64,000 bases of DNA, from positions 186,001-250,000 of the IMG/VR virus record IMGVR_UViG_3300028666_000022; one strand, given 5' to 3'. Positions 19,274-42,869 of this stretch are shown piece by piece. The notes beneath the pieces were generated by a model that was given only the letters and a program-made list of their open reading frames with translations, did not search any database and was not told where the DNA came from. The position numbers and the translations under genes were made by a program. Source of the DNA: a virus. The first letter of the stretch is position 1. Every line of letters starts with the position of its first letter.

Positions 19274-19909
19274 TCATTTTGTTAACAACGTAACTAAAAA
19301 TCTTTTAAGATGAGTAAAATTTGGAAGTATCTTATAATATTCAATATATTTATCACCATCTAAATCGATGATTGAAGCATTTGTTCTTTGTAATAATTTG
19401 TCTTTGATTTCATCAATATTAAATTGAAAAAATTTGTAAATATTAATGTCAACACCAAATATTTTATTTTCAGATAAGAGATATATCATCTCATTTTTAA
19501 AATTATATAATATATCTGCTTTTTCTGGTATTTTATTTAATAAGTCTTGAATGTTTTTTATTTGAGAAAATATAGGATCAACAATAATATATTCATATTT
19601 AGAAAAGAAATAAAATTGTGGTACTAAATTTATAAAATTTTCAATACCATTTACATGAGATGATTTACTTTCTTCAAAACTACATTCCCAATATAATTCA
19701 TTTGTTATTATTTTCTTTTTTAGAATATCTGCATTTTGAATAATATTATTATTTGGATTACTAGCTTTCATAAATGACCATCCTACATATAAAGTAGGTA
19801 ATCTTTTATCTAATTTATCGTATTCAATCGATTCTTTATAATAATTTATATAATCAACTTTTATGTGGTTAACTAGTTCTTTTTCATAGATAATATTAGC
19901 AAGTTTCAT
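19274..19909 (-). CDS. Hypothetical protein, 211 residues
   Basis: Not recognised. The sequence (MKLANIIYEKELVNHIKVDY...) has a mixed alpha/beta pattern with a YVGWSFMK segment near residue 41-48 and a conserved-looking EYIIVDPIF strand (about 105-113). It is the last gene of the long minus-strand island and abuts the 80-residue gene with no gap, suggesting translational coupling. It is not a clear glycosyltransferase. Confidence 0.55.
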   Translation of the reverse strand: MKLANIIYEKELVNHIKVDYINYYKESIEYDKLDKRLPTLYVGWSFMKASNPNNNIIQNADILKKKIITNELYWECSFEESKSSHVNGIENFINLVPQFYFFSKYEYIIVDPIFSQIKNIQDLLNKIPEKADILYNFKNEMIYLLSENKIFGVDINIYKFFQFNIDEIKDKLLQRTNASIIDLDGDKYIEYYKILPNFTHLKRFLVTLLTK

Positions 19910-20152
19910 TTAAATATCATTATTTAATATATTATAAAATTTACTATTTTTATTAATTTTATTTGATTTATTTATCATTTTTTCGGTAAGTATTAAAATT
20001 TTAATTTTAAACCAACCATCAGTATCTTTATACACATAACTATAATCAGAAACTATTTCATCATTTTCTTTTTTACATTTACTTATATATTTTTTTCTTT
20101 GTTTATTTAATTCAGTTTTTGCTTTCAATTTAGTTTTGTATCTCATAAACAT
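19910..20152 (-). CDS. Small basic hypothetical protein, 80 residues
   Basis: A Lys-rich N-terminal half (MFMRYKTKLKAKTELNKQRKKYISK) is followed by a DGWFKIKILIL strand and a Asn/Lys-rich tail. It starts directly at the end of the upstream glycosyltransferase and stops where the 211-residue gene begins. No family recognised; nucleic-acid binding is possible from charge alone. Confidence 0.5.
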   Translation of the reverse strand: MFMRYKTKLKAKTELNKQRKKYISKCKKENDEIVSDYSYVYKDTDGWFKIKILILTEKMINKSNKINKNSKFYNILNNDI

Positions 20153-20794
20153 TTATTTACTGTTAGCAATAAAATGTGAATAGTAGGTGCTTGTCTTTAT
20201 ATTTTTAAAATAATATTTTTCATCATCCGAAATATTATTCATATCGGTATAATACCAAGGAACATGCCTAGCACAATAAGGAATATTAGTTCTTATACTA
20301 TTAAATGATTTAAGTCTTGTACGATATAAAGAAAATGTGGTATCTGTTGCAGCATCAAAATACATATCATCTAACGGTCTTGTCCAGTATCCACCTTCTG
20401 TTTTCCTAACAAAATTACTAAATTCAATATTAGGTAAATCATCTATTCTTAAAGATAATGCACATTTTTCATATTGAGGATATTTATCTAAACCTCTTCT
20501 TAGTACATCTAAGAAATCTTTAGGAACTCCAGTTAAATCTAAATCAGAATCTGTTACTATGTATTCATCATCTATTCCCAATTTAAATAATATTCCAGCA
20601 TCCCAAATAACTGTGTGACCAAAATTATGATCTAATAAAACCGTTTCATATTTACAATTTTTATAATAATCTAATAATGGTTGATATGTACTTGCATTGT
20701 CTATAAAAATAGGATCTACCCCACAATTATGTAAATAATCTGCCATTTTCATTGGCAACAATAATCGATTATTATTTATTATTAATGCTTTCAA
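20153..20794 (-). CDS. Glycosyltransferase-like protein (GT-A fold), TTG start
   Basis: The 213-residue protein begins MKALIINNNRLLLPMKMADYL and has IFIDNAST and the metal-binding-like TDSDLDLTG, with WTRPLDDMYFDAATDTTFSLYR later, a pattern of small GT-A sugar-nucleotide transferases found in capsule clusters. The natural N-terminus starts at a TTG codon (20792-20794); an ATG at residue 15 would remove the first strand, so TTG is preferred. It lies at the downstream end of the glycan island. Donor and acceptor are unknown. Confidence 0.65.
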   Translation of the reverse strand: MKALIINNNRLLLPMKMADYLHNCGVDPIFIDNASTYQPLLDYYKNCKYETVLLDHNFGHTVIWDAGILFKLGIDDEYIVTDSDLDLTGVPKDFLDVLRRGLDKYPQYEKCALSLRIDDLPNIEFSNFVRKTEGGYWTRPLDDMYFDAATDTTFSLYRTRLKSFNSIRTNIPYCARHVPWYYTDMNNISDDEKYYFKNIKTSTYYSHFIANSK

Positions 20795-20808
20795 AATATT
20801 TTAAAATT

Positions 20809-21042: not shown

Positions 21043-21043
21043 T

Positions 21044-21469: not shown

Positions 21470-21470
21470 T

Positions 21471-22091
21471 TTAATTATCATTCATTATTATTTCTTTATA
21501 TTCTTCAAAACTAACTAGTTGTAATAATTCTTTTCTATTTTTATCAAAATCTTCCCAATTAAGATTGTAGATATTATAATCTAACATTTTATTTTCTAAA
21601 ATATTTCTCTTCGTAATAATAGTACATCCCCAATCTTCATCAACAACAAAACAACTCCAATCTTTTAACTCATGTTTAATTAAAACAACTGCTTTATATA
21701 CATCACCATTCCATTGTCCTTTTGTTTTTAAATATTCTTCATAAGATCTTGCATGATATTCTGTTGGTGGATTACAATCGTGCATTATTATAAATCCACC
21801 TTCATTAAGACATTTTATTGCGTTATAGACATCCTTATATGATTGTTCTGCAGTATGCATTCCATCCACAAATATAACATCATATTTATTATTACCTACT
21901 CTATTATAAAAGAAATTATCACTAGTAGTAATATATGTACAATTACCAATAGGATTTGGATCTACCGATTCTTTTATTAAAGAATTTATTTTATCGAAAT
22001 TTTCTTCTGGCCTCTCTACACCAATTTCAAGATAGGTTTGAAAATTATACTTTTCAAATAGTAGATTAATTATTTCTGTTCTAGTTGTCAT
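21471..22091 (-). CDS. Class I SAM-dependent methyltransferase
   Basis: The 206-residue protein shows motif I (YLEIGVERPEENF, about 19-31) and the Methyltransf_24-type DVIFVDGMHTAEQSYKD (about 77-93) followed by a GGFIIMHDCNPP loop. Enzymes of this family often O-methylate sugars or small molecules. It is placed in the glycan island between unknown small genes, so sugar methylation or glycan capping is the best inference. Substrate unknown. Confidence 0.7.
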   Translation of the reverse strand: MTTRTEIINLLFEKYNFQTYLEIGVERPEENFDKINSLIKESVDPNPIGNCTYITTSDNFFYNRVGNNKYDVIFVDGMHTAEQSYKDVYNAIKCLNEGGFIIMHDCNPPTEYHARSYEEYLKTKGQWNGDVYKAVVLIKHELKDWSCFVVDEDWGCTIITKRNILENKMLDYNIYNLNWEDFDKNRKELLQLVSFEEYKEIIMNDN

Positions 22092-22106
22092 AAATTTTTA
22101 TTTTAA

Positions 22107-22489: not shown

Positions 22490-22511
22490 AACCCAAAATT
22501 AAATAATATTT

Positions 22512-23222
22512 TCATTTAATTCCATGTTTATTAAAAATATTTTCAATTATTTTAATATCTTCTTGATTTAACTCAGCTTCACCATATATTGATTTATGCC
22601 AATCTTTAAGTAATTTTCCATGTTCCATCACATGTCCGAGAGCAACTACAAAATTATTTACTGGAAGTAATATTGCTGCATTATCATATTTTGCAGTATC
22701 TCTAGTTTCCCATTGCCAAGGATTTATATTCTGAACTAAATATTTTTTAAAATATGATGTTTTCCATATTGAATATTGTAATGATAGTCGATAATCAGCA
22801 TTTTGATTTATTTCAGAAATATTATAATTACCAAAATTTTTAATACAACTACTTCCACCATAGAAATCTGAAGGTGTTTTTGTTAACCACATTCTTCCAA
22901 AATTTGGAATTTCTTTAATGGTTTTAATTATTTGATCTAAAAAATCATTATTAAATTCAGTAGTAACAACACAATCATCATTACCATAAATGAAATATTC
23001 ATCATTGAAATCATTAAAAAATTTAATTAAATCATTACTAAAATTCTGTGCTCCGGTATCTTCACCTAATGATATGAATTTCCAATTACCTAAATCAAAA
23101 TCTAATGTTTTATATCCTAAAACTGTAATATCTAATTCAGAACCACCAAATTTATCTAATGAATATTTATTAGCTTCTAAAATATTACGATATTTATCAC
23201 ATGTGGGAATTATTATTTTCAT
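22512..23222 (-). CDS. Glycosyltransferase-like protein (GT-A fold)
   Basis: The 236-residue protein begins MKIIIPTCDKYRNIL, the first strand of a GT2-type fold, and has YFIYGNDDCVV (about 96-106) where the DxD-like metal site is expected. WQWETRD and LGHVMEHGKLL follow. It is directly downstream of the GDP-mannose dehydratase gene. A sugar transferase using a locally made nucleotide sugar is likely; specificity unknown. Confidence 0.6.
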   Translation of the reverse strand: MKIIIPTCDKYRNILEANKYSLDKFGGSELDITVLGYKTLDFDLGNWKFISLGEDTGAQNFSNDLIKFFNDFNDEYFIYGNDDCVVTTEFNNDFLDQIIKTIKEIPNFGRMWLTKTPSDFYGGSSCIKNFGNYNISEINQNADYRLSLQYSIWKTSYFKKYLVQNINPWQWETRDTAKYDNAAILLPVNNFVVALGHVMEHGKLLKDWHKSIYGEAELNQEDIKIIENIFNKHGIK

Positions 23223-23233
23223 AAAAAATATAA

Positions 23234-24211
23234 TTATTTCTTATCTTTAAGAATATTCATCCAATTATTCACCATATCTTTCATTAATTCTTCCACTGTT
23301 TGTTCTGGTTTCCAATTAAGAATAGTTTTAGCTTTAGTTGCATCACCTCGCAAATATGGTAATTCTTCTGAACGTAAATATATTGGATTTTGTACAACAT
23401 AATCTTTATAGTCCATATCTAAATATTTAAATACCATATCACATATTTCTCTAATTGATGTTGCTATTCCTGTTGCAATTACAAAATCATCAGGAACTTC
23501 ATGATTTACTATTTTCCACATAGCTTTAACATAATCAACACTAGAACCAAAATCCCTATATGTATCTAAATTACCTAATTCAATATTTTTTCTTAATCCC
23601 AATTTAATTTCTACCGCTTGCTTACATATTTTTTGTTCAACAAAATTTGAACCCCTTCTTACACCAGTGTGGTTAAAGAGAATTCCCACACATGCATGTA
23701 AATTATATGCTCTTCTAAAATGACGAACTAAATTAATTGAAGCAACTTTACTTATTCCATAAGGACTTGTTGGATTAAAAGGGGTGGTTTCTCTTTGATA
23801 TAAATCTTCATCTACATTTAAACCAAATGATTCTGAGCTTCCAGCAAAATAATATTTAGCATCAGGACAAATTAATTTATATCCCTCTAAAATATTTTGA
23901 TTTCCCTTAAAATTAACATCCATTACATAGGTTGGCACGTCAAAACTGACTCGTACATGGCTCATAGCCGCTAAATTAAAAATATAATCAGGATTTGAGT
24001 TTTTTAAAAATCTATTAACTGATACTGAATCAGTAACATCGCCATATTCACAATGAATTAAATTTTTAATGTGTTCTAATCTATATTGTTGATTTTCGGC
24101 AACACTATGTCTTCTGACCATTCCATATATGTTATGACCCATCGATAATAAGTAATCAGTTAGGTTACTGCCGTCCATGCCTGAAATTCCAAACAATGCA
24201 ATATTACTCAT
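23234..24211 (-). CDS. gmd: GDP-mannose 4,6-dehydratase
   Basis: The 325-residue protein has the GMD/SDR nucleotide-binding start GISGMDGSNL (8-17), the substrate-site SSESFG (125-130), the catalytic Tyr-Lys pair YGISK (151-155), RRGSNFV, and LGNLDTYRDFG, all characteristic of GMD. It converts GDP-D-mannose to GDP-4-keto-6-deoxy-D-mannose, the precursor of GDP-fucose, GDP-rhamnose and GDP-perosamine. The DegT aminotransferase gene next door suggests perosamine. Length fits the family, which is usually 325-370. Confidence 0.9.
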   Translation of the reverse strand: MSNIALFGISGMDGSNLTDYLLSMGHNIYGMVRRHSVAENQQYRLEHIKNLIHCEYGDVTDSVSVNRFLKNSNPDYIFNLAAMSHVRVSFDVPTYVMDVNFKGNQNILEGYKLICPDAKYYFAGSSESFGLNVDEDLYQRETTPFNPTSPYGISKVASINLVRHFRRAYNLHACVGILFNHTGVRRGSNFVEQKICKQAVEIKLGLRKNIELGNLDTYRDFGSSVDYVKAMWKIVNHEVPDDFVIATGIATSIREICDMVFKYLDMDYKDYVVQNPIYLRSEELPYLRGDATKAKTILNWKPEQTVEELMKDMVNNWMNILKDKK

Positions 24212-24238: not shown

Positions 24239-25096
24239 TTAAGATGCTATATCTAAAGTATGTTTTTTACCACATCTTTTACATTTAAAAATTTCTAATT
24301 CAAATTTTTCTAAATTACGATGAATATCATCTATTAATTTTGTTTCAATAGGTTCATCATTTAACCAATCAATATCAGATTCTAAATTTAATAATTCTGG
24401 ACAAAAACACCAATCTGGATTATTCTTAATTTCTTCTTCTAATTGATATTTTTTTCTTATTTCTTTATTTAATTTCTTTTTGTTACTCATTTTATTATTT
24501 TTAAATATATCCATATTAGTTAAATCAGGCCAATCAGTAACAACCCATTGTTTAGGTGGAGTATTAATAGCATTATCTAATCTTTCTAATCCCAATTGTG
24601 CTGCTTCCGGTGTTAAATAATAGTGATAACCAATAGTATCAATATTTTGTTCTCTCCAAGGTATATCAGGTAATCTACCATCATATGAATTTTTTTTCAA
24701 TTCTAATGCAGCTTCTTTATTATCTGTTAAAATTATTCCAGCACGTCCAATTTTCAAATGTTTTCTATATTGGAAAGACAGTGACATGAAAGTATTTGGA
24801 ATATAACTATTTCTTTTCCAAAGAACTGCAGCATCAATTACTTTTTTAGTTAAATAATAATAATCAACCCAATTTTCATCTTTCCATTCTAAATTAATAT
24901 TTAATTTATGTGCTAAAAAGGGAATTGATAAATATGTTCTTTTAGGAACTGTTATTTTGGTTGCCTTTGTATGTCTTAAACATAATTCAATACCATGTGT
25001 ACATGAATCAACAGCAATTGCATATGGAGATCCAAAAAACTCACATATTTTATCTTCAAATAATTTTACTGTTTCAAAATTTATATTATTATTCAT
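24239..25096 (-). CDS. Compact DegT/DnrJ-type sugar aminotransferase with C-terminal zinc ribbon
   Basis: The 285-residue protein has the DegT features SPYAIAVDSCTHGIELCL (about 23-40), a IPKRTYLS-like loop, and SFQYRK with Lys-112 in the position of the PLP-binding lysine, followed by GRAGIILTDN. It is much shorter than usual (about 370): the region between the cofactor-loop and the lysine is reduced. The last 30 residues end in a CKRCGKKH zinc-ribbon-like motif, unusual for the family. With GMD upstream of it in function, GDP-perosamine synthesis is inferred. Confidence 0.6.
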   Translation of the reverse strand: MNNNINFETVKLFEDKICEFFGSPYAIAVDSCTHGIELCLRHTKATKITVPKRTYLSIPFLAHKLNINLEWKDENWVDYYYLTKKVIDAAVLWKRNSYIPNTFMSLSFQYRKHLKIGRAGIILTDNKEAALELKKNSYDGRLPDIPWREQNIDTIGYHYYLTPEAAQLGLERLDNAINTPPKQWVVTDWPDLTNMDIFKNNKMSNKKKLNKEIRKKYQLEEEIKNNPDWCFCPELLNLESDIDWLNDEPIETKLIDDIHRNLEKFELEIFKCKRCGKKHTLDIAS

Positions 25097-26097: not shown

Positions 26098-27821
26098 TTA
26101 AATAATATTATGTTCTCTTAAAATTTTCTCAATATTATCATAATCAAAATACGCAATTCTAATTAATTTAATATTTTTATCTTTAGCAAATTTATTTTTT
26201 ATTTCATCATTAATTTGTAGTTCTTTAAATTTTTCTTCTCCACCGAAATGTTTAATAATTTTATAATGTTGTATACCGTCAAATTCAATTAGAATGTTTT
26301 GTTCTGGTAAATAAAAATCAAATGGTAAAGATTTTTTATTTCTGCAATTTTCAAATTTTTTTTGATAAATAAAATTTATATTATTTTCTTTTAAAATTTC
26401 AGAAATTTTATTTTCACCCTTTGATTCGTTACATTTAGGACAACAATTATCACGATTTATAAAATTAATGTAACTTACATACCAAATATGATTATCTTTA
26501 TTACATCTTAAATGAATTTTTGTTTGATTATTTTTATATAAAAATTTTTCTATTAATTCATAATTTTTCTTTTTGCATTTATTTAGAACATTTTTTTCTG
26601 CTTCTTCTTGTGTTATTTTTAAAACATTAACACATTTAGAACATCCATGATCTTGACTCACAAAACTACTATAAATTGTTTTCCATATATAATTATCTTT
26701 TTTACATTTTAAATAAATAGTTGTTTCATTATTCACATATATAAAATTTTCAACTAATTCATAGTTTTTTTCTTTACATTTTTTCAAAACTTTTTCTTCA
26801 GCTTCTTGTTGTGTTATTTTTATACTATTTCCACATTTAGGACAACCTTGATTTTGATTAATAAAATTATCATATTTAACATTCCACACATAATTATCTT
26901 TATTACATTTTAAATGAATTTTTGTTTGGTTATTTTCATATGAAAAGTTTTCAACTAAGGTATAGTTTTTTTCTATACATTTTTTTCTGCTTCTCCTTGT
27001 GTTATTTTTGAAACATTACCACATTTAGGACATCCACTTTTATTATGAATAAAACTATCGTATGTTGGTGTCCATTTATACTCATCAATAGTACATTTTA
27101 AATGAATTTTTGTTTTTGTACCTTTATAAATAAATTTATCAAATAAAACATATTTTTTTTCTTTACATTTTTCTAAAACTCTTTCTTCGGCTTCTTGTTG
27201 TGTTATTTTTAAATTTCCATTACATTTAGGACAACCTTGATTTTTATTTATAAATTTATTATATCTTACAAACCATTCATGTTTATCTTTATTACATTTT
27301 AAATGAATTTTTGTTTTATGGTTTTTATAAATAAAATTTTCAACTAATATATAGTTTTTTTCTTTGCACTTTATTAAAACTTTTTTCTCTGCTTCTTCTT
27401 GTGTTATTAATGGTCTATTACCACATTTAGGACATCCACTTTTACTATGAATAAAACTATCATAAATTATATTCCATATATAATTATCTTTATTACATTT
27501 TAAGTGAATTATAGTATCGTTATTAACATATATAAAATTTTTAATTAATTCATAATTTTTTTCTTTACATTTCTCTAAAACTTTTTGTTCGGCTTCTTGT
27601 TGTGTTAATCTTAAGTTTCCACTACATTTAGGGCATCCTTGATTCTTACTAAGAAAATTATTATAAGTTACATACCAATCATACTTATCTTTGTTACATT
27701 TTAAATGAATTTTTGTTTTATTATTTTTATATGAAAAATTTTCAACAAGAATATAGTTTCTTTTCTCACACTTTTTAAAAACATTTTCTTCTGCTTCTTG
27801 TTGTGTTAATTTCTTTAACAT
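26098..27821 (-). pseudogene. Seven-repeat zinc-ribbon protein with Vsr-like endonuclease domain, split by a frameshift
   Basis: Two frames, 26973-27821 (N-terminal) and the rest down to 26098, join in the -1 direction at a run of seven A residues (26980-26986 on the plus strand as T). Joined, they encode about seven tandem units of 67 residues (pattern ITQxEAExxVLxKCKEKNY...KIHLKCNKD...W...GCPKC, each with a likely zinc site), then a Vsr/PD-(D/E)XK-type domain (PFDFYLPEQNILIEFDGIQHY). The fifth unit lacks 13 bases compared with the others, which explains the shift; deletion between two AAAAAAATGT copies fits. The A-run also forms an A-AAA-AAT slippery site, so recoding is possible. A homing-type nuclease is likely. 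Confidence 0.7.
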
Positions 27822-27855: not shown

Positions 27856-28407
27856 TTAATAACAATATCCCAATTCCTTAGCCCCTTTTAATATTAATTC
27901 TTTATCTCTTTCACCTATTTTTCTTGCTGGACTTCCACCATAAATACACCACTGTTCAGTACTTTTTTTCAATAATGAATTTGCTGCTAAAACACTGCCC
28001 TCTGCCATTTCAACATAAGGTAATACAACAGAATTAACTCCCACTAATGAAAATCTTCTCATGATTATTTTATTACCAATAAGATTTCTATATTTTAATG
28101 GTACTATTGGATTTATTAATCCTTTTGTAAAATCATCACTTATAACCACAATTTTTGACCCCGATCCAATGTTTGTGAAGTCTTCCATAATTAATTCACC
28201 TGTAGGGCCACCTAGCACAGATACTCCATTTCCAATGTGTATATATGATCCTAATTCAGCAGAAACAGAAAAATAAACATATCCATCAATCGAAACATGA
28301 TTTTCAATTTCAACTAATTCTGGTTGTGTTATTTCACACCACTGATGGATTCTAACATCTTCACCAATTTTCTTAAAAAGATTATCATATCTATCGGTTC
28401 TTACCAT
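27856..28407 (-). CDS. Hexapeptide-repeat acyltransferase
   Basis: The 183-residue protein has the left-handed beta-helix pattern with repeated hydrophobic-x-x-G turns (VSIDGYVYFSVSAELGSYIHIGNGVSVLGG, LIMEDFTNIGSGSKIVV) and a C-terminal IYGGSPARKIGER typical of WbbJ/maltose O-acetyltransferase-type enzymes. It moves an acyl group, usually acetyl from acetyl-CoA, to a sugar. The start overlaps the stop of the upstream reductase gene region, indicating coupling. It could N-acylate the amino sugar made by the GMD/aminotransferase pair, an inference. Confidence 0.75.
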   Translation of the reverse strand: MVRTDRYDNLFKKIGEDVRIHQWCEITQPELVEIENHVSIDGYVYFSVSAELGSYIHIGNGVSVLGGPTGELIMEDFTNIGSGSKIVVISDDFTKGLINPIVPLKYRNLIGNKIIMRRFSLVGVNSVVLPYVEMAEGSVLAANSLLKKSTEQWCIYGGSPARKIGERDKELILKGAKELGYCY

Positions 28408-29052
28408 TTAGATTCCTCCATCGATTTTTAAATTACTTCCACAAACATAATCATTTTCAATTAAAAAAACAATGGTTTTAAATAATTCTTCAACAGTACA
28501 AAATCTTTTTAAACCTATTTTATTTTTCGCCATTTCAATAAATTTCTCATCTACTTTTTCACCCATTCCATATTCTGTATACCCCAATTGAATTGTATTA
28601 CATGTTATTCCATATTTAGCATTTTCTTTATTTGCTGTACTTATTAATCTATCTAAAAATGCTTTTGAAGCACAATATATTGAATTCTTTGGAATGTTTT
28701 GTTCAGAAAATACTGACGATATTGCAATTATTTTACCACTTTTCTTTTCAATCATTCTAGGTAAACAAGCAGCTAATATATTAATATTTCCCATGATATT
28801 AACATTTAACATATCAATAATTGATTGATAATTATCTTCATTAATATCATTTAAAAATACATCAAATTTTTTACCAGATAAATTCAAAACAATATCAACA
28901 TCGTTGACTTCAAAAAAATGTTGTACTTGTTTTAAATTAGTAACGTCAACAATTTTACTACTTATTGCAAGTACTTCATAATTTTCCTTCAATAATGGAA
29001 TTAATTTAGAACCTAAACCACCTGTTGCACCAAAAACAGCAATTGTTTTCAT
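28408..29052 (-). CDS. Short-chain dehydrogenase/reductase
   Basis: The 214-residue protein has the classical SDR features GATGGLG (8-14), NLSG, SS at 113-114 and the catalytic YCASK (Tyr-127, Lys-131), ending in a C-terminal SNLKIDGGI of the FabG/KR type. It probably reduces or oxidises a keto-sugar or acyl intermediate with NAD(P)H. It is co-directional and abutting with the acyltransferase, so they may act on the same substrate. Specific substrate unknown. Confidence 0.75.
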   Translation of the reverse strand: MKTIAVFGATGGLGSKLIPLLKENYEVLAISSKIVDVTNLKQVQHFFEVNDVDIVLNLSGKKFDVFLNDINEDNYQSIIDMLNVNIMGNINILAACLPRMIEKKSGKIIAISSVFSEQNIPKNSIYCASKAFLDRLISTANKENAKYGITCNTIQLGYTEYGMGEKVDEKFIEMAKNKIGLKRFCTVEELFKTIVFLIENDYVCGSNLKIDGGI

Positions 29053-32869: not shown

Positions 32870-33703
32870 TTATTTTCTGGAATTAAAATATTTTATTATT
32901 ATATTTCTATAAAATTCATTGGCAATAAATTTTTCATCTTTTGAAATAAATTCAAACTTAAAAAAATTATTAGAACATGTTGAAAATGCAATTGGAATTG
33001 GTGATTTAAGATCAACAAAATCTATTGGGTATTCATCACCAATGTTTTCTAAACCAAGAATATTTAATATTTGATTAGTCATATGAATAAAAACATATGA
33101 TGTAGGATGACTTGCATATAGAAATAATCTTTTCTTGCTTATATTTTCTTTTATATAATCATGTACTTTTATATCGGTATATTTATCTTTTTCTTTTAAA
33201 ATCTTCATTGTTTTATCATGTCTTTCATCATAATTAAAATCAATTTGATTATTATCATATTTCAATAAAATTTCATTCAATGATAAACCAGATTTTATTA
33301 AATCATCAATAATTTCGATATTTTTAGTAACACTATTATACCCATCCCTATTGCACCATTCATCAGTAACATCTCCATTAAGTGCAGGTACTAAAGGCCA
33401 TAAACTAAAATTATATACATAAGGTATTGAGATTGTTATACATGTTGATTTCAATAATGACTTCAAATAATTTGTTGAATTTTTACCATATCTATCGTCT
33501 AATGGTTGATAAATAAAAACATCTGTATCTCTTAATGAAGTATAATATTTGTCAATTAATATTTCATCATTATGAATCATTTGATAGTTACGAACAACGT
33601 CAGTAATATTATATTTATCTCTAAATTCTTGACTTTCATTAAGAAATTTAGCAATTGCTCCACCTTGGCAAGTAGCAAATATAAAAACATTTAATTTATT
33701 CAT
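32870..33703 (-). CDS. WcbI-like polysaccharide biosynthesis protein
   Basis: The 277-residue protein begins NVFIFATCQGGAIAKFL, resembling the N-terminal motif (G-N-C-Q) of the WcbI family, which has a Cys-His catalytic arrangement and a role in capsule polysaccharide acylation. YQPLDDRYG and IPYVYNF are also in keeping. It directly follows the KAS III gene on the transcript, suggesting a common acylation step. Confidence is moderate because similarity is by memory. Confidence 0.55.
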   Translation of the reverse strand: MNKLNVFIFATCQGGAIAKFLNESQEFRDKYNITDVVRNYQMIHNDEILIDKYYTSLRDTDVFIYQPLDDRYGKNSTNYLKSLLKSTCITISIPYVYNFSLWPLVPALNGDVTDEWCNRDGYNSVTKNIEIIDDLIKSGLSLNEILLKYDNNQIDFNYDERHDKTMKILKEKDKYTDIKVHDYIKENISKKRLFLYASHPTSYVFIHMTNQILNILGLENIGDEYPIDFVDLKSPIPIAFSTCSNNFFKFEFISKDEKFIANEFYRNIIIKYFNSRK

Positions 33704-34124
33704 TTAAAAACACTTTATCTAGCTTCTGTCCTTGATATTTCCCCGTTTTCATTTCCAGTACTTTCGTTTTATCTTCTAATATAGTATAGGTATGTCCACC
33801 TCTTAAAGTAAAGCTACAATCACCTTCTTCAAGTATTGATTCAGCAATTATATTATCATCAATATCATAGAAAGTACATTTAACCTTTCCTCTTAAAACA
33901 ACCCATGATTCTTGAGCAATTCTATCATTATCGGTTACTTCTCTTATTATGTGTTTATGTGGCCTAAATGTTTTACCTTTATCCATTTTAAGTGCTGCAC
34001 ATTGAATAAAATTATCTGGTTCAATTATTTCAAACCTAAAATCATCCATTTTATCAAAATCATCAAATCTATATATCACATGTAATAAAAGATTAGGATC
34101 TACTTTTGAGAATATTTTTTCCAT
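33696..34124 (-). CDS. Cupin-fold protein
   Basis: The 142-residue protein has the cupin double-motif pattern RPHKH (about 53-57) with WVVLRGKVKCTFYDID, then EGDCSFTLRGGHTY. It overlaps the WcbI-like gene by 8 bases. Cupins in sugar clusters act as epimerases, isomerases or sugar-binding proteins; here the exact reaction is unknown. A cupin is also fused to the SDR in CapF-type reductases, so it could be a separated partner of the reductase gene at 35619, which is speculative. Confidence 0.6.
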   Translation of the reverse strand: MEKIFSKVDPNLLLHVIYRFDDFDKMDDFRFEIIEPDNFIQCAALKMDKGKTFRPHKHIIREVTDNDRIAQESWVVLRGKVKCTFYDIDDNIIAESILEEGDCSFTLRGGHTYTILEDKTKVLEMKTGKYQGQKLDKVFLNE

Positions 34125-34132
34125 TTAATTTA

Positions 34133-35626
34133 TTATATTAAAAAATCTTTATATATTTCATTATATTTTTGAAGATTAGATGTAGTGCGTTTCACAATAA
34201 AACCATATTCTGGCGAAATATAAAATGTATCCCAAACACTGCCCCAATCTAAATAAGTATTTTTATTATCTGTTTTAAAATAATCAATAATCACATTAGT
34301 TGCCATGCTTGCACTAAATAAATAATAATTATCATTACCTAATTTATTTATGTTTTCAATTGCATTAATAATTTCTTGTTTAGCTAAATAACAATTTATT
34401 GTTGGTATACTAATGTGGGTAAAATTAAAAAATTTGCTTAATTTCTCTAAATATTGTGGTCCAATCAATACTAATTTTTTTGTTTTTAATACGTCTAATA
34501 ATTTTAGGTATTTTTCTGGACTTTGTTCATGGGTAATCCTAATAAAATCATAGTTTAAATATGATAATTGTGGATTTTTATTTTTTAGATCATTTAAAAT
34601 ATTTTTTACGTGAGGGAGTTGAGCATACCAATAATCAAAAGATTCTAAAACATAATTTTCATCATGAACATAATTTAATAATGCATTTTTTAATTCAATC
34701 GACATTTCTGGAAAATATACATGACCATCACAATTAGCGTTATTTGGAGTTTCACCAATTATTGCAATTAATTCACCATCATTATATCTTGAATATTTAA
34801 AATGTTCATTATTTTTAATTTTATTAAAATAATAATCAAAATCTTTTGTATAAAACATATTATTTATTATTTGTTTTATTTTCATATTTGGTTCAGGAAT
34901 TCTCTCACAAAGACCAACATTTGTTGTTATATTTATTTGTATTAATTTTTCTTCTGCTAATATTCTATAAAAATTTTTTGCATCATTTTTTTGAATTTCA
35001 TCTATATTTGAAACAGTTGCACGAGTTTTACTACTGTGATGAATAATCGGAGAACTATAAACTAAAGCAACATTATAACCAGCATTTACTGTTTTTGCAA
35101 AAACATAATCATCACCACCAAAAATTATTAATTCTTTTGGTATTTCTGGCATTATGTTTCTTCTTATTGTAAAATCCCAACCCTGATAATATACTGGATC
35201 TAATATCTTATATTCTAACGTGCTCTTAGTTTCAATATAATTAGGATTATTTGTTACATGTATAACAAAACCAACTTGTGTTTCTAAATTAAAAACATTA
35301 ATAGTATCATCAATAAATTTATTAGATAATTCAACATCGTTATTTAAAAAACACAAAAATTCACATAAACAAATATTTTTAAAATTATTCCAAATATGAT
35401 TAAGTGGTACATTCTCAGAATTTCTAAGTACGATAATTTTATTGCTTTCACAATAATTTAGAAAATCTTGAGTACCTTCTTCACTAGAATTTTGATCATA
35501 TAAATATATTTCAAAATTTTTATTTGTTTGATTTAATAAATCATATATACACTTCTTTGTTAATTGAAGTTGATTTAAATTTACTACAACAACTCCAATT
35601 TTATTTTTTTGAATTTCACTATTCAT
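34133..35626 (-). CDS. Bifunctional glycosyltransferase: GT2 domain plus GT-D (DUF1792-like) domain
   Basis: The 497-residue protein has an N-terminal GT2 domain (IGVVVVNLNQLQLTKKCI, FLCFLNNDVEL, about residues 9-230) and a C-terminal region with YSRYNDGELIAIIGE (about 263-277), matching the F-x-R-x-x-D-G-E motif of GT-D transferases, and YLFSASMATNVIIDY. This is known from bacterial glycan clusters and suggests two linkages made by one protein. It overlaps the reductase gene upstream. Confidence 0.7.
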   Translation of the reverse strand: MNSEIQKNKIGVVVVNLNQLQLTKKCIYDLLNQTNKNFEIYLYDQNSSEEGTQDFLNYCESNKIIVLRNSENVPLNHIWNNFKNICLCEFLCFLNNDVELSNKFIDDTINVFNLETQVGFVIHVTNNPNYIETKSTLEYKILDPVYYQGWDFTIRRNIMPEIPKELIIFGGDDYVFAKTVNAGYNVALVYSSPIIHHSSKTRATVSNIDEIQKNDAKNFYRILAEEKLIQINITTNVGLCERIPEPNMKIKQIINNMFYTKDFDYYFNKIKNNEHFKYSRYNDGELIAIIGETPNNANCDGHVYFPEMSIELKNALLNYVHDENYVLESFDYWYAQLPHVKNILNDLKNKNPQLSYLNYDFIRITHEQSPEKYLKLLDVLKTKKLVLIGPQYLEKLSKFFNFTHISIPTINCYLAKQEIINAIENINKLGNDNYYLFSASMATNVIIDYFKTDNKNTYLDWGSVWDTFYISPEYGFIVKRTTSNLQKYNEIYKDFLI

Positions 35627-36458
35627 GTTTAGCTAAATTTAAAATATAATTATATTCAAATAATTCTTTTAATTGTGTTTTATAATCAGGAACAATAATA
35701 TTAATGTTATTACGTATTGTAATTAATGAACGATCACATTTTATTGGTGTCCTGAGTGGAATAACATTTACATTTAATTTATATGTTTCAGAAACTAATT
35801 TAACTAAATCATATTTATTTATTGAATTTTCAGTAAAAACATGTTTTACTCCTTTCCAAAACATATTTTCATTAATTATGTCTTCACATATTTTTACAAA
35901 TTCTAAACAAGTAATGCCATTCCAAATATGATTAGTATACCCGTTTACTGTCTTATTTTTATTTGATTTAACAAATTCAATAAAAGACATTTTATTTTTT
36001 AATTCTTCACCAATTATTGAAGTTCGAATAACAGTTGCATTTGATGGTTCGCCCAATGCTTTTGTTTTTCCATAAACATCTATTGCATTTGTAGAATCTT
36101 CTTCTGAATATTTACCACGTAAACCATCAAAACAACAATCTGAACTAGGTTGTAGCATATTAACCTTAAATAATTCACAAATATTAGCTAATTTTCGTGG
36201 AAAAACAGAATTAATATTAATAAAATCTAAATCATCAATTCCATTTCTTTGTTTTATTATTCCAATACAATTAATTACCACATCTCCAACATTAATATCT
36301 TTATTTTTTAATACTAACATAATATCACTAGAATTTGTTAAAGATAAATCATTAAAATCTTTTCTGTTTATATCAATAACATCAAAATTTTTTAATTTAA
36401 AATATGTACTAACATATCTTCCTAACATTCCGGTACTGCCAAATACAAAAATTTTCAT
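35619..36458 (-). CDS. RmlD-like 4-keto-sugar reductase
   Basis: The 279-residue SDR shows GSTGMLG (7-13), PSSDCCFDG with the S-x-D catalytic site, and YGKTK (Tyr-129, Lys-133), the family of dTDP-4-dehydrorhamnose reductases. In combination with the dehydratase (36465-37460) and the 2-epimerase (38241-39317) it fits the UDP-L-QuiNAc (WbvB/WbvR/WbvD) or UDP-L-FucNAc pathways; a stand-alone RmlD-type reductase favours L-QuiNAc. It is translated in an overlap with the GT2/GT-D gene. Confidence 0.75.
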   Translation of the reverse strand: MKIFVFGSTGMLGRYVSTYFKLKNFDVIDINRKDFNDLSLTNSSDIMLVLKNKDINVGDVVINCIGIIKQRNGIDDLDFININSVFPRKLANICELFKVNMLQPSSDCCFDGLRGKYSEEDSTNAIDVYGKTKALGEPSNATVIRTSIIGEELKNKMSFIEFVKSNKNKTVNGYTNHIWNGITCLEFVKICEDIINENMFWKGVKHVFTENSINKYDLVKLVSETYKLNVNVIPLRTPIKCDRSLITIRNNINIIVPDYKTQLKELFEYNYILNLAKHE

Positions 36459-36464: not shown

Positions 36465-37460
36465 TCATTTTTTTAAAAAACCACCATTCATTAGTAATTT
36501 ATAAAGATAATTCTCATCTTTAATATTGTCTGCTGATGAAAATTCTATAAAATTAACTTTTTTATTTTTTTCTATATGTGAATAATCTTTATTTATTTTT
36601 ATTGAAGGTAAAATTATAAAATAATTTTCATTAAAAATATAAGATTTTTGAGATTCATGTTCTGATATTAATACTTCATGTATTTTTTCACCTTCTCTTA
36701 TACCAACTTCCTCAATAATAGTATCTTTATTACCATAATAATCAACCAATGCTTTACCCAAATCTTTAATATAAAAACTAGGCATATTCATAACAAACGT
36801 TTCTCCACCAATACTATTTTCAACTGCTTGAAATAATAATTCAATTGCTTCTGAAAGTGTTAAGAAAAATCTTGTCATTATGTTACTAGTTATAGTAATT
36901 TTATTATTCGTTTTGATTTGATCAATAAAATATGGCACAACACTACCATTAGATCCTAAAACATTTCCACCTCTTATACAAACAAAATTAGTATCAGTTG
37001 TTAAATTATTTGCTTGAATTGTTAATTTTTCACCAACTGCTTTAGTTAATCCATATAAATTATTTGGACTGACCGATTTATCTGTTGATACATCAATAAA
37101 ATATTTTATTTTATATTTAATTGCTGAATTAATTAAATTAATTGTACCATTTATATTTGTTTTAATTGCTTCTTGGGGTAAATTTTCACAAATAGGAACA
37201 TGTTTAAGTGCAGCTAAATGAAAAACATAATCAATATTGTTATTACTAAACAATCTATCTACTGCTTCAGCATCTCTAATATCACCAATAACATATTCAA
37301 TTATTTTATTATTAAATTTTCTTTGCATATTTACCTGCGCAAATTCACCTCTTGAAAAAATTATTATTTTCTTAGGATTTTTTAATAATAATTGTTTTGT
37401 TAATTCGTTTCCCCATGAACCAGAACCACCATCAATTAATATTGTTTTATTTTTAAACAT
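36465..37460 (-). CDS. UDP-GlcNAc 4,6-dehydratase, CapD/FnlA-type
   Basis: The 331-residue protein has GGSGSWG (11-17), the HLAALKHVPICE motif, STDKSVSP (125-132) and YGLTK (Tyr-136, Lys-140), then LGSNGSVVP and VGIREGEKIHEVL, typical of the CapE/FnlA/WbjB inverting 4,6-dehydratases of UDP-GlcNAc. It makes UDP-2-acetamido-2,6-dideoxy-L-hexos-4-ulose types, the precursor for L-FucNAc or L-QuiNAc. It is followed by the RmlD-like reductase. Confidence 0.8.
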   Translation of the reverse strand: MFKNKTILIDGGSGSWGNELTKQLLLKNPKKIIIFSRGEFAQVNMQRKFNNKIIEYVIGDIRDAEAVDRLFSNNNIDYVFHLAALKHVPICENLPQEAIKTNINGTINLINSAIKYKIKYFIDVSTDKSVSPNNLYGLTKAVGEKLTIQANNLTTDTNFVCIRGGNVLGSNGSVVPYFIDQIKTNNKITITSNIMTRFFLTLSEAIELLFQAVENSIGGETFVMNMPSFYIKDLGKALVDYYGNKDTIIEEVGIREGEKIHEVLISEHESQKSYIFNENYFIILPSIKINKDYSHIEKNKKVNFIEFSSADNIKDENYLYKLLMNGGFLKK

Positions 37461-37463: not shown

Positions 37464-38234
37464 TTATATTTTAATAAAATTCGGATATTTTATTACCCAT
37501 TCTTTTAATTCTTTATGATTTACTTCTTCTAAAGAAACGAATCTTTTTTTAAAGATTTCATCATTTCTATTAAATAGATCAATACCACTTTCCAAACATT
37601 TTATAATATGTTCTTCATTATTTATTTCAACATTATTTGTTTGTATTTCAGAATATGATTCTAATTTTAATTTAATTCTATCTTTATCACCAAGAAAACT
37701 ATAATGCCAACCACCATTATTAATTATCTTAATATCTCTACCACTAAATAAACGAGTATCTTGTGGTGATTTTACGTATTTTTTCTTGATTACTACTGTA
37801 CCAAACCATTCTTGATTTTGTATGCAATTCACATAATAATAAAACAATTTTTGTTTTAATTTAAAAATATCATAATTATTATTAATTCCTTCTAATATTG
37901 CATCTGGATTAGGAATTTCATCAACATCTGAAATAATAATATAATCATTGTCATTTGCTGAACTTAAACCTTGAATAATTAGATTTCTATTATAGAACTC
38001 ATTTTCCCATGCATCACTATATGGTAATTTATCTACACTAATATAAATTATCTTATCTGAATATTTTTCAAATAAATTTTTATTCTTTTCATAATACATT
38101 TCTTTTTCATTTCCAGTAAATGTTGTTCCTGCTTCAACTAATACAAAATAATCAACCACATTATATAATGTCATCAACCTAAGTTCTAATAACTCAAGTT
38201 CATTAAAAAATATAAAACAGTCAAAAATTTTCAT
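37464..38234 (-). CDS. GT17-type glycosyltransferase
   Basis: The 256-residue protein begins KIFDCFIFFNELELLELRL and has FVLVEAGTTFTGNEK, AWENEFYNRN and IISDVDEIPNP, the characteristic motifs of glycosyltransferase family 17 (N-acetylglucosaminyltransferase type). In bacteria and phages, members attach GlcNAc or related sugars to glycans. It lies between the dehydratase and the 2-epimerase. The DVDE acidic site is present. Confidence 0.75.
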   Translation of the reverse strand: MKIFDCFIFFNELELLELRLMTLYNVVDYFVLVEAGTTFTGNEKEMYYEKNKNLFEKYSDKIIYISVDKLPYSDAWENEFYNRNLIIQGLSSANDNDYIIISDVDEIPNPDAILEGINNNYDIFKLKQKLFYYYVNCIQNQEWFGTVVIKKKYVKSPQDTRLFSGRDIKIINNGGWHYSFLGDKDRIKLKLESYSEIQTNNVEINNEEHIIKCLESGIDLFNRNDEIFKKRFVSLEEVNHKELKEWVIKYPNFIKI

Positions 38235-38240: not shown

Positions 38241-39317
38241 CTATATTTTTCCTAACAAAACATTAATTATTATGTCTGAAACATTTTCAATCAAATAACC
38301 ATCGGGTACAATCCATTTATTTTTTCTTTTATTTATTATATTATATGCTTCAATAATATTTTCTGTTTTCGTACCACACAATATACTTGAACCGCATTCA
38401 ATTAATTCTTGTCTTTCAGTATATTCTCTAATTACTAATGATGGTATGCCAAAAATACATCCCTCTTCTGGTGTGGTTCCCGAATCACTTATTATACATT
38501 TAGCGTTTCTTTCTAATTTAACAAAGTCAAAGAATCCAAACGGTTCAGAAACAATAATATCTTCATTTAATTTTATGTTAAATAATTTAAGTTTATTTCT
38601 AGTTCTAGGATGTATCGAAAATACTATTTTTTCTTTACTATCTTTATCTATAATATTAATTGCATTTATGATATTTCTTAATGTTTCTTCATTATCTACA
38701 TTTTCAGAACGGTGTGCAGTAACCAAAACATATTCATTTGAATAAAGATTTAATTTTTTTAAAATATCACTATTACTAATATCAAAACTATAATTTTCTA
38801 ATACTTCAAATATTGGATTGCCTGTTTTAAACACATTATTTTTACTAAATCCAATATCTAAAAGATTTTGTTTACTATTTTCGATATAAGGAAGATTATA
38901 CGTTGATACATTATCAATTATTCTCCTATTCATTTCTTCTGGAACTCTATTATCAAAAGCTCTATTACCTGCTTCCATGTGATATACTGGAATTTTATGT
39001 TTTGCAGCAACAATAGCAAGCAATGCTGAATTAGTATCTCCAAGAATTAATATTTTGTCTGGTTTTTCTTTTATTAATATTTTTTCAAATTCAATAATAG
39101 CATTTCCTAAAAAATCTCCAAATGATTTACTCTCGTGTTCAAAATAATAATCTGGTTTTCTAATTCTTAGTTCATTGAAAAATATTTTACTTAAATTATA
39201 ATCAAAATTTTGATTAGTATAAACCAAAACATGATCAACCAGTTTGTTTAATTTTTCTACTATTACTGATAAACGTATGATTTCTGGTCGAGTACCAATT
39301 AATGTTAATATTTTCAA
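38241..39317 (-). CDS. UDP-sugar 2-epimerase, WbjD/FnlC-like, TTG start
   Basis: The 358-residue protein starts MKILTLIGTRPEIIRLS and contains RKPDYYF, ILGDTNSAL, MEAGNRAFDNRVPEEMNRRI and SDSGTTPEEG, diagnostic of the WecB/FnlC-type epimerases (family length about 370). It inverts C2 of a UDP-N-acetylamino sugar, the last step in UDP-L-FucNAc or UDP-L-QuiNAc synthesis. The natural start is a TTG codon at 39315-39317 in the context TTTAAAATATTTTGAAA, the same context as the TTG start at 20794. Confidence 0.8.
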   Translation of the reverse strand: MKILTLIGTRPEIIRLSVIVEKLNKLVDHVLVYTNQNFDYNLSKIFFNELRIRKPDYYFEHESKSFGDFLGNAIIEFEKILIKEKPDKILILGDTNSALLAIVAAKHKIPVYHMEAGNRAFDNRVPEEMNRRIIDNVSTYNLPYIENSKQNLLDIGFSKNNVFKTGNPIFEVLENYSFDISNSDILKKLNLYSNEYVLVTAHRSENVDNEETLRNIINAINIIDKDSKEKIVFSIHPRTRNKLKLFNIKLNEDIIVSEPFGFFDFVKLERNAKCIISDSGTTPEEGCIFGIPSLVIREYTERQELIECGSSILCGTKTENIIEAYNIINKRKNKWIVPDGYLIENVSDIIINVLLGKI

Positions 39318-39339
39318 AATATTTTAAATTTTATTATAT

Positions 39340-41256
39340 TTATTTTTTATTTACTTCGTAATCAGTTTCTAATGTAGTGACTCCATAATATAATAATCTA
39401 TTTTTATTACGTAACTCATCAAGATTAGGCATTGAATAAAATGCTCTTGGATGATATTGATGTACAACTGAAATATCATCAGAAATACTTAAATTTAACC
39501 CCAATCTTTTTATTCTTAATAAGAATTCATTATCATCATATTCAATTCCCTTTGCATATCTTTCATCAAAACCACCTAATTTTTTCATGTTTTTTCTAGT
39601 CATTGCTGAACAAAAATGATAATAACATGGTCTATGTTTTGAATGATTATACCAACCAACATCATTTGTTATTCCTTGTGGCAATGTTTTTAATAAATTA
39701 GGAATTGTATTATTTTCACAATATTTATATAATTCATTTGTTAATTTTTCATCTAATGAAAATGTTGACATAGTAATATACTTAGTATCATCAATATTTT
39801 TATTAACATAACTAAGTACATCATGAACATGTAAACATTCAGGATTTTGAATTATAATTATATCCCCAACAGCAGCTCGTATTCCAACATTAAATGGTAC
39901 ACAAGGATTGACATACCATTTATCTTCTTTTTCTAATCTAATTATCTTTAAAAATGAAAATTCTTCAAGATATTCTTCTAATCTATGTTCTGGTGAACTA
40001 CAATCATCAACAACAATTAATTCAAAATTTTTAAATTCTGATTTTTCGATAGATTTAAGTGTTTCAAAAAACTGCTTCTTTCTATCGAAATAAGATGTGA
40101 TAATCGATATTTTTGGTTTTTGGTTTTTAATTAAAATACAACCATTTTTATCTGTTTTTGTTTTAATTACTTCGTTAGCAATTTTAGAAAATGTTGTTTT
40201 ATATTCATTATGATTATTTTCATTTAAAATATTATTATATTTTTGTGATGTAGCATGTCCACCATACCAATGATAACCAATAGAATTTAAATTAAATTCA
40301 TTAATACCTAATGATCTACTAAAACTATAATCAACTTTAGTCCAATCTAAACCATATAATAATGTTGTCGATAAATTATAAAACTTTAAATTAGAATATT
40401 TTGAAATTATTTTATTATATATTTGAGTAAAAGGGCTATGACCAAATTTTTTATAAATTAAATGAACACCCATCGATTGATAATCACTTTCATTATAATT
40501 ATTTACACCAAATTCAAATAATTTTTTATAATATTCATTATTAATTGATGCGCCTAAAAATCCTATAGTTAACCACCAAACCTTATAATCTGTTTTAGAT
40601 TGATATTCATGGATTATTGTATCATAACCACCATCAACAATTTTATTATAAAAATCATCTATCGGTCTAAAAAACAACACGTCCATATCACAATAAAATC
40701 CACCACCAACGAATAATTGATAATATCTAAATAAATCGCTTTCGTGTACTGGTGATATATTTTTTAATTTATCTTGTACTTCTTTGGGAAACTCAACCAT
40801 TTCTATTTTAATATTTAATTCTTTAAGTTTACTAAAATAACTACTACCAGTATACATATAATAATCTTGTTCATCTGTTCCTTTCCATGCTTTATCTTTT
40901 ACATTATTATTTGATACAAATAAAGTAATATCCCAATCTGGATTCATTTTTCTAAATGAAAATATTGTCATATATCTCATCCAAGATAAATCACAACCAC
41001 TCCAATAAAAAAATATTTTTTTTGGTATTTTTCTCGATAAAGAAAAAGTATTAACTTTTTTTATTTCAATAATTTCTTTTTGTTCTATATTTGCTGATAT
41101 AACAGGAGCTTTAGGTTTACCGTATATTCTTAATTTATCTGCTTCATCCATTTTTTTATTCTCTTTTTTATCAATAAAAATTCCTTGCTTATTTCTAAAT
41201 TCTATATTTTTTTTTATTTGATTTTTTAAATTAAACCTTTCTTTTTTTACTCCCAT
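39340..41256 (-). CDS. Bifunctional glycosyltransferase: GT32-like plus GT2 domain
   Basis: The 638-residue protein has a basic N-terminal 70-residue leader, a GT32/DXD sugar-transferase domain (RKIPKKIFFYWSG then YCDMDVLFFRPIDD, about 75-330), and a C-terminal GT2 domain (KPKISIITSYF, LIVVDDCSSPEHR, about 380-630). Two linkage reactions on one chain are suggested. It overlaps the 540-residue transferase upstream by 10 bases. Sugars unknown. Confidence 0.75.
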   Translation of the reverse strand: MGVKKERFNLKNQIKKNIEFRNKQGIFIDKKENKKMDEADKLRIYGKPKAPVISANIEQKEIIEIKKVNTFSLSRKIPKKIFFYWSGCDLSWMRYMTIFSFRKMNPDWDITLFVSNNNVKDKAWKGTDEQDYYMYTGSSYFSKLKELNIKIEMVEFPKEVQDKLKNISPVHESDLFRYYQLFVGGGFYCDMDVLFFRPIDDFYNKIVDGGYDTIIHEYQSKTDYKVWWLTIGFLGASINNEYYKKLFEFGVNNYNESDYQSMGVHLIYKKFGHSPFTQIYNKIISKYSNLKFYNLSTTLLYGLDWTKVDYSFSRSLGINEFNLNSIGYHWYGGHATSQKYNNILNENNHNEYKTTFSKIANEVIKTKTDKNGCILIKNQKPKISIITSYFDRKKQFFETLKSIEKSEFKNFELIVVDDCSSPEHRLEEYLEEFSFLKIIRLEKEDKWYVNPCVPFNVGIRAAVGDIIIIQNPECLHVHDVLSYVNKNIDDTKYITMSTFSLDEKLTNELYKYCENNTIPNLLKTLPQGITNDVGWYNHSKHRPCYYHFCSAMTRKNMKKLGGFDERYAKGIEYDDNEFLLRIKRLGLNLSISDDISVVHQYHPRAFYSMPNLDELRNKNRLLYYGVTTLETDYEVNKK

Positions 41257-42869
41257 GTCTCATTTATAACATTTTCATATAATTCTAATATTTTTTTAGT
41301 TGAATAATTACTATGATATTTTATAACATCTTTTGGAACTTCTTGTAATTCTTTACTTAAAATATTACCCTCTTTATCTACACTATAAATAATTCCGGGT
41401 TTTCCACATAAAAATCCTTCTATTGTTGTTCGACCTTTAAATATTCCTGCAGTATAATCACATTTTTTTAAATAATCTTCAACGTTTGATTTAACTCCCA
41501 AATATTTTACGTGTTGATTATTTAAATCAAGTAATTCATTAATGTAATCATTATTATCTGCACCGATAATCCAAAGTTCTTGATTATTTTCTTTTGTTGT
41601 TTGAATCAAATCTATTATAATATTTTTTCTCAAATGATCTAATGTTCCTATAAATAGTACTACTTCTTTTTCATTTTTTATTTGTTTATACTTAGTATTA
41701 AACCTATTAGAATCAAACGGATTATCTATTTCAACAATATTTTCTTCATCAATACCAAAATTTTTAATATAATTAGTAATTGATTCTCTAATTGAAATAT
41801 ATTTTTTTATTGTTGGATTAATAATTGGTTCTTCAAATACTGGAATAACTTCACTTCTTACATGCATAACTGCAGGAGTATTTGGTATTAATTGTAATAT
41901 TAACTCACCAATAGGTTTATGATTAATATGTATTATATCAAATTCAACTTCATTTTTAATAAAATTAAATCTACCTTCTTGATCTAAAATATAATTAGGT
42001 AAATTTGCATATGAATATACTTTAACACCATTTTTTCTTGCTTTATCATATAAAGGATTACCAACAACAGATGATATAATTGTAACATCACACCCTAATT
42101 TAACTAATTCTTTTGATAACTCATAGTTTGAAACTTCTGAACCAGTATAATTTTTAAAAAATTGACAACAAATTAATACTCTTAACTTATCTTCAGAAAC
42201 ATGTCTTATTGGTAAATCATATTCTTTTACAAATTTTTGTCTATTCTCTTCCCAACTTTGATTAGTTATTCCAATAGATTTATGTAAAACTCTTATTGAG
42301 GTAATTACTCCTATGTTATTGTTACTCAGATAGTTATCTACTACGAAGGAATGATCATAATAGTGGTACTTACCATAATTTTCATTAAATTTATTCGTAA
42401 TTTTATTACAATCAACAGCCATAAATAATCCATCAATTGTTACAACTGGTTTTATTCCTTTATATTCATTTGAATATTCACTTACCCAAGTATTAATACC
42501 ATCTGAATGTTCTACCACCCCCACCATTTTACTGCGATCGCTCCAAAATACAGCACTATCACTCATAAACGTACTACCTGCAACACCTAATATAGAATAA
42601 TCACTATTATTAAAATAATTTAATAATATTTTACCCCAATTATTTGTTTTTATAATTATATCGTTATGACAAAATACCATTATAGAATTTTCAGTATTAT
42701 GTTCTTCAATAGCTTTATTATAAATTTCAGATAGTGAATATTGATTATAGTTAGTATAACATATTACTTTATGTTTTACACCAACAGTACTATCTATGTG
42801 TTTAATAAATTTTTGATTCTCATCATCAGAAAGATGCGAGGAAAATACGACAACTATATTATTCTTCAT
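41247..42869 (-). CDS. Two-domain glycosyltransferase: GT2-like plus GT4
   Basis: The 540-residue protein, first gene of the island, has an N-terminal GT-A-like domain (IVVVFSSHL..., MVFCHNDIII, about 1-215) and a C-terminal GT-B/GT4 domain (LRVLICCQFFKNYTGSEVSNYEL, HVRSEVIPVFE, VVLFIGTLDHLRKN, about 230-535). It overlaps the next gene. The Bacteroidota-type promoter 23-53 bases upstream should drive the whole minus-strand glycan transcript. Confidence 0.75.
   Translation of the reverse strand: MKNNIVVVFSSHLSDDENQKFIKHIDSTVGVKHKVICYTNYNQYSLSEIYNKAIEEHNTENSIMVFCHNDIIIKTNNWGKILLNYFNNSDYSILGVAGSTFMSDSAVFWSDRSKMVGVVEHSDGINTWVSEYSNEYKGIKPVVTIDGLFMAVDCNKITNKFNENYGKYHYYDHSFVVDNYLSNNNIGVITSIRVLHKSIGITNQSWEENRQKFVKEYDLPIRHVSEDKLRVLICCQFFKNYTGSEVSNYELSKELVKLGCDVTIISSVVGNPLYDKARKNGVKVYSYANLPNYILDQEGRFNFIKNEVEFDIIHINHKPIGELILQLIPNTPAVMHVRSEVIPVFEEPIINPTIKKYISIRESITNYIKNFGIDEENIVEIDNPFDSNRFNTKYKQIKNEKEVVLFIGTLDHLRKNIIIDLIQTTKENNQELWIIGADNNDYINELLDLNNQHVKYLGVKSNVEDYLKKCDYTAGIFKGRTTIEGFLCGKPGIIYSVDKEGNILSKELQEVPKDVIKYHSNYSTKKILELYENVINETWE

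Follow-up and report, generated by a model that had tools for sequence, protein, structure and literature searches.

A variable-content island of sugar genes was found at a fixed site, between a gp53-like baseplate wedge gene and a gene for a conserved 211-aa protein, in a large phage and its relatives; its boundaries, its promoter element and one gene domain are constant, and the remainder of its content turns over. Our favored reading, probably the correct one on the gene content, is that this separately promoted island would serve to glycosylate a virion protein step by step in the cytoplasm, with an exchangeable glycan. The window analyzed here is a stretch of 64 kb, bases 186001 to 250000 of a 339,898-base IMG/VR virus record (G000). 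Matches in PHROGs to tail sheath, major head protein, portal, head protease and baseplate wedge proteins mark G000 as a T4-type myovirus, and genes for a baseplate hub and a gp53-type wedge were detected inside the window by PHROG comparison. Judged by these genes, the source is a T4-type jumbo phage, represented by a contig of about 340 kb. No Rfam families or tRNAs were found in the 64-kb window.

From position 42869 down to 19274, the minus strand carries all 29 open reading frames of 70 aa or more and 94% of the sequence is coding, in agreement with an earlier claim, made from the sequence alone, of about two dozen co-directional genes. The extent given in that sequence-only reading had to be shortened, as the last gene belongs to the flank and is also found in relatives without the island. 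The island proper consists of about 28 tightly packed co-directional genes (20153 to 42869, minus strand; Table 1). Pfam and PDB comparisons showed a dominance of glycosyltransferases (GTs), nucleotide-sugar enzymes and decorating enzymes, which upholds the description of the block as a glycan assembly line resembling a capsule cluster or a chlorovirus gene set. The proposed acyltransferase, KAS III and WcbI-like proteins each had Pfam matches, as did the nucleotide-sugar enzymes (CapE-like, CapG-like, RmlD-type, GDP-mannose dehydratase and DegT aminotransferase). Four GT proteins were confirmed by Pfam; the proposed number of roughly nine is reached only by counting domains and adding three unconfirmed proteins. 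The proposed cupin has a motif recognizable by eye but no Pfam match. SAM methyltransferases were likewise confirmed, but one methyltransferase gene encodes an MT-A70 adenine methylase and is not a sugar gene. This gene and a frame-broken gene with an endonuclease-like end, whose continuation sits in another frame, are passengers in the island; the frame break could be due to decay or to an error of assembly. Purifying selection acts on those island genes that were tested (dN/dS of 0.10 to 0.26, compared with 0.25 for gp53), indicating that they are not decaying.

Table 1. Island genes and flanking genes, in window coordinates
Feature	Coordinates	Strand	Evidence
gp53-like baseplate wedge gene, left boundary/upstream flank	42926..43240	-	phrog_7145, E 3e-4
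Core GT, PF13712 (GT2_5) + GT4	41247..42869	-	Pfam
Bifunctional GT, Gly_transf_sug (GT32-type) + GT2	39340..41256	-	Pfam
CapG/WbjD-like UDP-HexNAc 2-epimerase	38241..39317	-	Pfam 7e-90; PDB 7ya2 CapG 1.4e-98; dN/dS 0.26
GT17-family glycosyltransferase	37464..38234	-	Pfam 4e-32
CapE/WbjB-like UDP-GlcNAc 4,6-dehydratase/5-epimerase	36465..37460	-	Pfam 2e-94; PDB CapE and relatives, best 1e-66; dN/dS 0.10-0.18
RmlD-type reductase	35619..36458	-	Pfam 1e-19
GT2 + second domain (weakly GT-D-like)	34133..35626	-	Pfam for GT2
Small cupin-like protein	33696..34124	-	Motif by eye only, no Pfam match; recurs in 4 islands
WcbI-family polysaccharide biosynthesis enzyme	32870..33703	-	Pfam 3e-23
KAS III-type ketosynthase/acyltransferase	31934..32869	-	Pfam
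MT-A70 adenine methyltransferase, passenger	31024..31599	-	Pfam 6e-27
SAM-dependent methyltransferase	29923..30618	-	Pfam
Putative GT-like protein	29059..29871	-	DxD motif by eye; no Pfam support
Short-chain dehydrogenase/reductase (SDR)	28408..29052	-	Pfam 6e-26
Hexapeptide-repeat acyltransferase	27856..28407	-	Pfam; recurs in 4 islands
Frame-broken CapR/treble-clef repeat gene, endonuclease-like, passenger	26098..27821	-	Pfam; ORFs 26973-27821 and 26098-26889
Short DegT-family sugar aminotransferase	24239..25096	-	Pfam 2e-12; common to 4 other islands
GDP-mannose 4,6-dehydratase (GMD)	23234..24211	-	Pfam 4e-91; common to 3 other islands
Putative GT-like protein	22512..23222	-	By eye; no Pfam support
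SAM-dependent methyltransferase (Methyltransf_24)	21471..22091	-	Pfam
Last island gene, putative GT-like	20153..20794	-	DSDLD motif by eye; no Pfam support
Conserved 211-aa phage protein, right boundary/downstream flank	19274..19909	-	57 blocks, median 60% identity

Viral contigs were scanned with the neighboring baseplate protein, the 211-aa protein and the core GT, and at least 78 related contigs were gathered by this three-protein scan. When counting was restricted to contigs identified with the baseplate protein, whose gene lies outside the island, the core GT gene followed gp53 in 24 of the 25 with enough downstream DNA among the matches listed (another four stop before this can be judged); L129, the one that differs, is only distantly related. 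The island measured 1.6 to 23.0 kb in 29 loci containing both anchors (window included), that of the window being the longest among the matches listed, and its genes run nearly all in one direction across these loci. Flanking genes were present throughout the relatives at median identities of 43 to 73%; for the gp53-like gene the median was 70%, over 48 related blocks. In relatives, the homologues are not scattered but form one operon at the corresponding site, and the comparison of gene content that the sequence-only reading had proposed yielded an island of fixed site and variable content between gp53 and the 211-aa gene.

Island content is swapped almost independently of backbone relatedness. 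Median pairwise gene sharing was 7 to 20% in every backbone-identity class, with a weak correlation (Spearman, 0.18) among genomes that are metagenomic and may be incomplete. In 25 non-redundant loci, 121 of 351 island genes had no homologue in another island at 35% identity; there were 170 gene families, 120 of which were singletons. Some pairs of distant phages share island genes at levels of up to about 0.7, indicating that gene sets appear to move between lineages. The sugar pathways are exchanged as sets, with CapE/CapG-type and GMD/DegT-type pathways present here and PfkB-type ones elsewhere. A PfkB-type kinase was detected in 11 islands, accompanied in some by a cytidylyltransferase-like protein and an epimerase, a combination that appears to resemble ADP-heptose synthesis. 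Two conserved proteins used as queries had no matches among GenBank phages, and the CapE-like protein matched two Clostridium genomes (55 to 57%) and others more weakly in a search of bacterial genomes. A 461-base segment (267811-268271) of GenBank record OR844989.1, which is 282 kb long and was labeled at deposition as a Staphylococcus aureus phage, is 66% identical to the CapG-like gene.

The only constant component of the island is the N-terminal PF13712 domain of the core GT (approximately residues 1 to 228), in which H68, D70, D146, G147 and H196 of the protein are invariant in 38 sequences. The second half is swappable, being absent, GT2, GT4 or longer in different phages, and is GT4 here. 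A structure model has a GT-A-like N-domain (majastridin) and a GT-B C-domain; a profile of the protein had no sequence match in the PDB, and no demonstrated protein acceptor of a PF13712 domain was found in the literature. The GT2 protein of the window is likewise a fusion: its weakly GT-D-like second domain is encoded on its own in other islands, by proteins with 67% and 59% identity to it.

The island is preceded by a promoter, TTG-N20-TACATTTG, at 42892..42922 on the minus strand, 23 bases before the core GT start. In 29 of 39 relatives the element was present no more than 130 bp after gp53, compared with 0.2 expected, and it was kept in several relatives despite an extra gene between gp53 and the core GT. 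TAnnTTTG at -7 is the Bacteroidota promoter consensus, which the island promoter fits (PMC7366714), with a TTG-type element about 20 bases upstream; a strict TTTG at -33 is absent. The strict pattern TTTG...TANNTTTG was discarded, having no match at the cluster, and the aligned upstream regions of relatives have TTG, not TTTG. The proposal that one Bacteroidota-type promoter serves the whole block therefore stands for this conserved element, but a second candidate within the block (28472-28442) means that it may not be the sole promoter. Shine-Dalgarno sites precede 1.3% of the phage genes and positions -11 to -14 are A-rich, a pattern reported for Flavobacterium johnsoniae (PMC6847099). Promoter type and this combination of Shine-Dalgarno scarcity and A-richness speak for a Bacteroidota-like host; a direct link to a host was not found, and the hosts of the clade are most likely Bacteroidota.

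The 211-aa gene was initially considered a conserved island gene, but outgroups without the island have it too, indicating that it is older than the island and is flank rather than cargo. Its product gave a confident model (pLDDT, 88.8) that matched no PDB fold; one uncharacterized phage protein matches it. The outgroup slot between the gp53-like and 211-aa genes is filled by a giant gene of about 1,780 to 2,160 aa in 9 of 10 loci examined (L089, L090 and L129 among them), and a homologue lies far from the slot in most island carriers, e.g., G000:305293-309261. The simplest reading would be that the ancestor of the clade lost the giant gene from the slot and that the glycan island has been there since.

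Several features elsewhere in G000 were recorded. The gene at 3959-6820, tried as a terminase, was reassigned from its translation and best PHROG match as a DnaB-like helicase gene with an intein (approximately residues 230 to 581), which is missing from relatives G002 and G009. An HNH segment lies within the portal gene (G000:311216-314704) and a foreign segment within the head protease gene (G000:302637-304544), both probably inteins. Adjoining the helicase gene are Ser/Thr-rich, fibre-like tandem paralogous genes (window 422-3799), whose number varies among relatives and which were also seen at G001:136369-147193 and G009:105824-121124. GT-like genes outside the island were located at window 52875-54020 and 54051-54869 and at G000:153101-154486 and 12317-13678; the two in the window (GT-B-like by eye and GT2, respectively) are conserved across the clade and might attach a core sugar shared by its members.

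In the proposed mechanism, the phage would synthesize nucleotide sugars of its own during infection from the UDP-GlcNAc and GDP-mannose of the host, the predicted products being an L-FucNAc/L-QuiNAc-type sugar and a 4-amino-4,6-dideoxymannose-type sugar that would then be acylated. The CapE-type dehydratase/epimerase and the CapG-type 2-epimerase of the UDP-L-FucNAc pathway (CapE-CapF-CapG/FnlABC) are present. The third step may be performed by the RmlD-type reductase, whose PDB matches were RmlD-type and did not include CapF, and the product could be an L-QuiNAc-type sugar rather than L-FucNAc. In the cytoplasm, the constant core GT would add the first or an early sugar to a virion protein that is conserved, the fused GTs and the soluble ones that follow would extend the glycan, and the methyl- and acyltransferases would cap it. 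Exchange of the distal genes at the slot would then result in a different glycan for each lineage. The site among baseplate genes favors, circumstantially, a virion protein as the putative acceptor; the fibres, with 24 to 25% Ser plus Thr compared with a genome mean of 12%, are possible candidates.

A role at the surface of the infected host, in which remodeling of LPS or capsule excludes rival phages or affects release and host carriers and transporters provide initiation and export, would explain both the resemblance of the enzymes to those of bacterial O-antigen and capsule clusters (CapE/CapG-like, GMD, DegT and WcbI) and the similar variation in content. This role is, however, unlikely. 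Proteins with two or more predicted membrane segments were absent from all 29 islands (0 of 415 proteins), as scored by a simple hydropathy count that gave 9 segments for Wzx and 6 for Wzy of a single control cluster from Escherichia coli. Multi-span proteins do occur elsewhere in G000, which thus does not lack membrane genes altogether. None of ten phage genomes had a flippase (PF01943), an initiating transferase (PF02397) or GtrA in a search that recovered its positive controls; PF00953-type transferases were covered by the hydropathy count, which gave no multi-span protein in the islands. Together, these results indicate that export of a capsule or O antigen is unlikely. The island, moreover, lies among virion genes and not in a lysogeny module, and serotype-converting phages, to our knowledge, bring their own membrane components. 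Soluble GTs could nevertheless act on host lipid-linked precursors, which would count against a virion acceptor.

Glycosylation of phage DNA as hypermodified bases, against restriction, is very unlikely here. GTs of T4-like phages act in this way (PMC6024577), the island holds an MT-A70 methylase, and a TS-family gene, possibly for an ordinary thymidylate synthase or a hydroxymethylase, was found in 7 of 10 relatives. Against this, no TS-family enzyme, C5 methyltransferase or TET/JBP protein (the last searched without a positive control) was found in G000, a possibly incomplete record that yet has the largest island, and two complete-looking deoxysugar pathways with acyl and methyl decoration exceed the known needs of base glycosylation. 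That laterally acquired genes simply accumulate at this site, with no single coherent product, is extremely unlikely, as volatile content and two passengers are outweighed by a first gene, promoter and site that are constant across the clade, one gene direction, near-complete coding density, complete-looking pathways and the low dN/dS values. With the export and DNA routes disfavored, stepwise cytoplasmic transfer to protein remains, and virion glycosylation appears to be the best fit of the three roles originally proposed.

Chloroviruses provide the closest comparison in enzymes. PBCV-1 glycosylates its capsid with self-encoded enzymes, and eight kinds of GT gene, scattered, occur in 43 viruses (PMC5408694). 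Virus-encoded, mostly soluble GTs and nucleotide-sugar enzymes act there in the cytoplasm (PMC5408694), as is predicted from genes here, and both systems have a few constant enzymes with variable decoration, a GT17 and multi-domain GTs. The chlorovirus GT genes are, however, few and dispersed, whereas this tailed phage has up to about 28 genes side by side behind a promoter, in a cassette at one exchangeable site; the capsid acceptor has been demonstrated there, and a virion acceptor is proposed here. Bacterial Wzx/Wzy clusters for O antigen or capsule share the fixed site, variable content and CapE/CapG-like, GMD, DegT and WcbI enzymes but differ from the phage-borne island, which has no initiating phosphosugar transferase, flippase, polymerase or other multi-span protein. 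The gtrABC serotype-converting module differs in its membrane protein GtrA, not found in the ten phage genomes. Mycobacteriophage virions are also reportedly glycosylated (Freeman et al. 2023), with phage GTs modifying structural proteins. Those are likewise tailed phages, with structural-protein glycosylation reported there and proposed here, but they belong to another lineage and have a couple of GTs rather than full nucleotide-sugar pathways in a variable island. Phage GTs are usually met singly, with their role guessed. Virion glycosylation by soluble enzymes of the chlorovirus type being already known, what appears to be new is an operon-sized, exchangeable glycan cassette.

Moraphages (PMC12619734) are large phages of T4 type for which Bacteroidota hosts are predicted; they have four GT orthogroups in their core and variable genomic islands of unexamined function. 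The jumbo size, Bacteroidota-like hosts, GTs and variable islands resemble those seen here. Membership of this group was unsupported in a comparison limited to gene content: lysyl-tRNA ligase and ClpA, near-core in moraphages, were not found in ten phages of the clade, although positive controls were detected. A description of the island locus was not found in the available part of that paper. The island may indicate what is encoded in the variable islands, of unknown function, that were described there for Bacteroidota jumbo phages (PMC12619734).

Throughout the clade, a single slot among the virion genes, fixed in position and led by a promoter, is given over to a glycan operon whose first enzyme is invariant and whose other content varies. 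A further proposal, which we consider quite doubtful, is that the operon is a swapped identity cassette, such that a self-made tail or baseplate glycan in each lineage helps to decide which cells capture the phage, for example through binding of the glycan to Bacteroidota glycan-uptake proteins. In that case, swaps of sugar genes, in addition to those of fibre genes, would drive the evolution of host range. The clade may be viewed as a natural experiment with one candidate initiating enzyme and about two dozen alternative outer pathways, and would represent a testable viral counterpart of O-antigen diversity, but one without lipid carrier or export.
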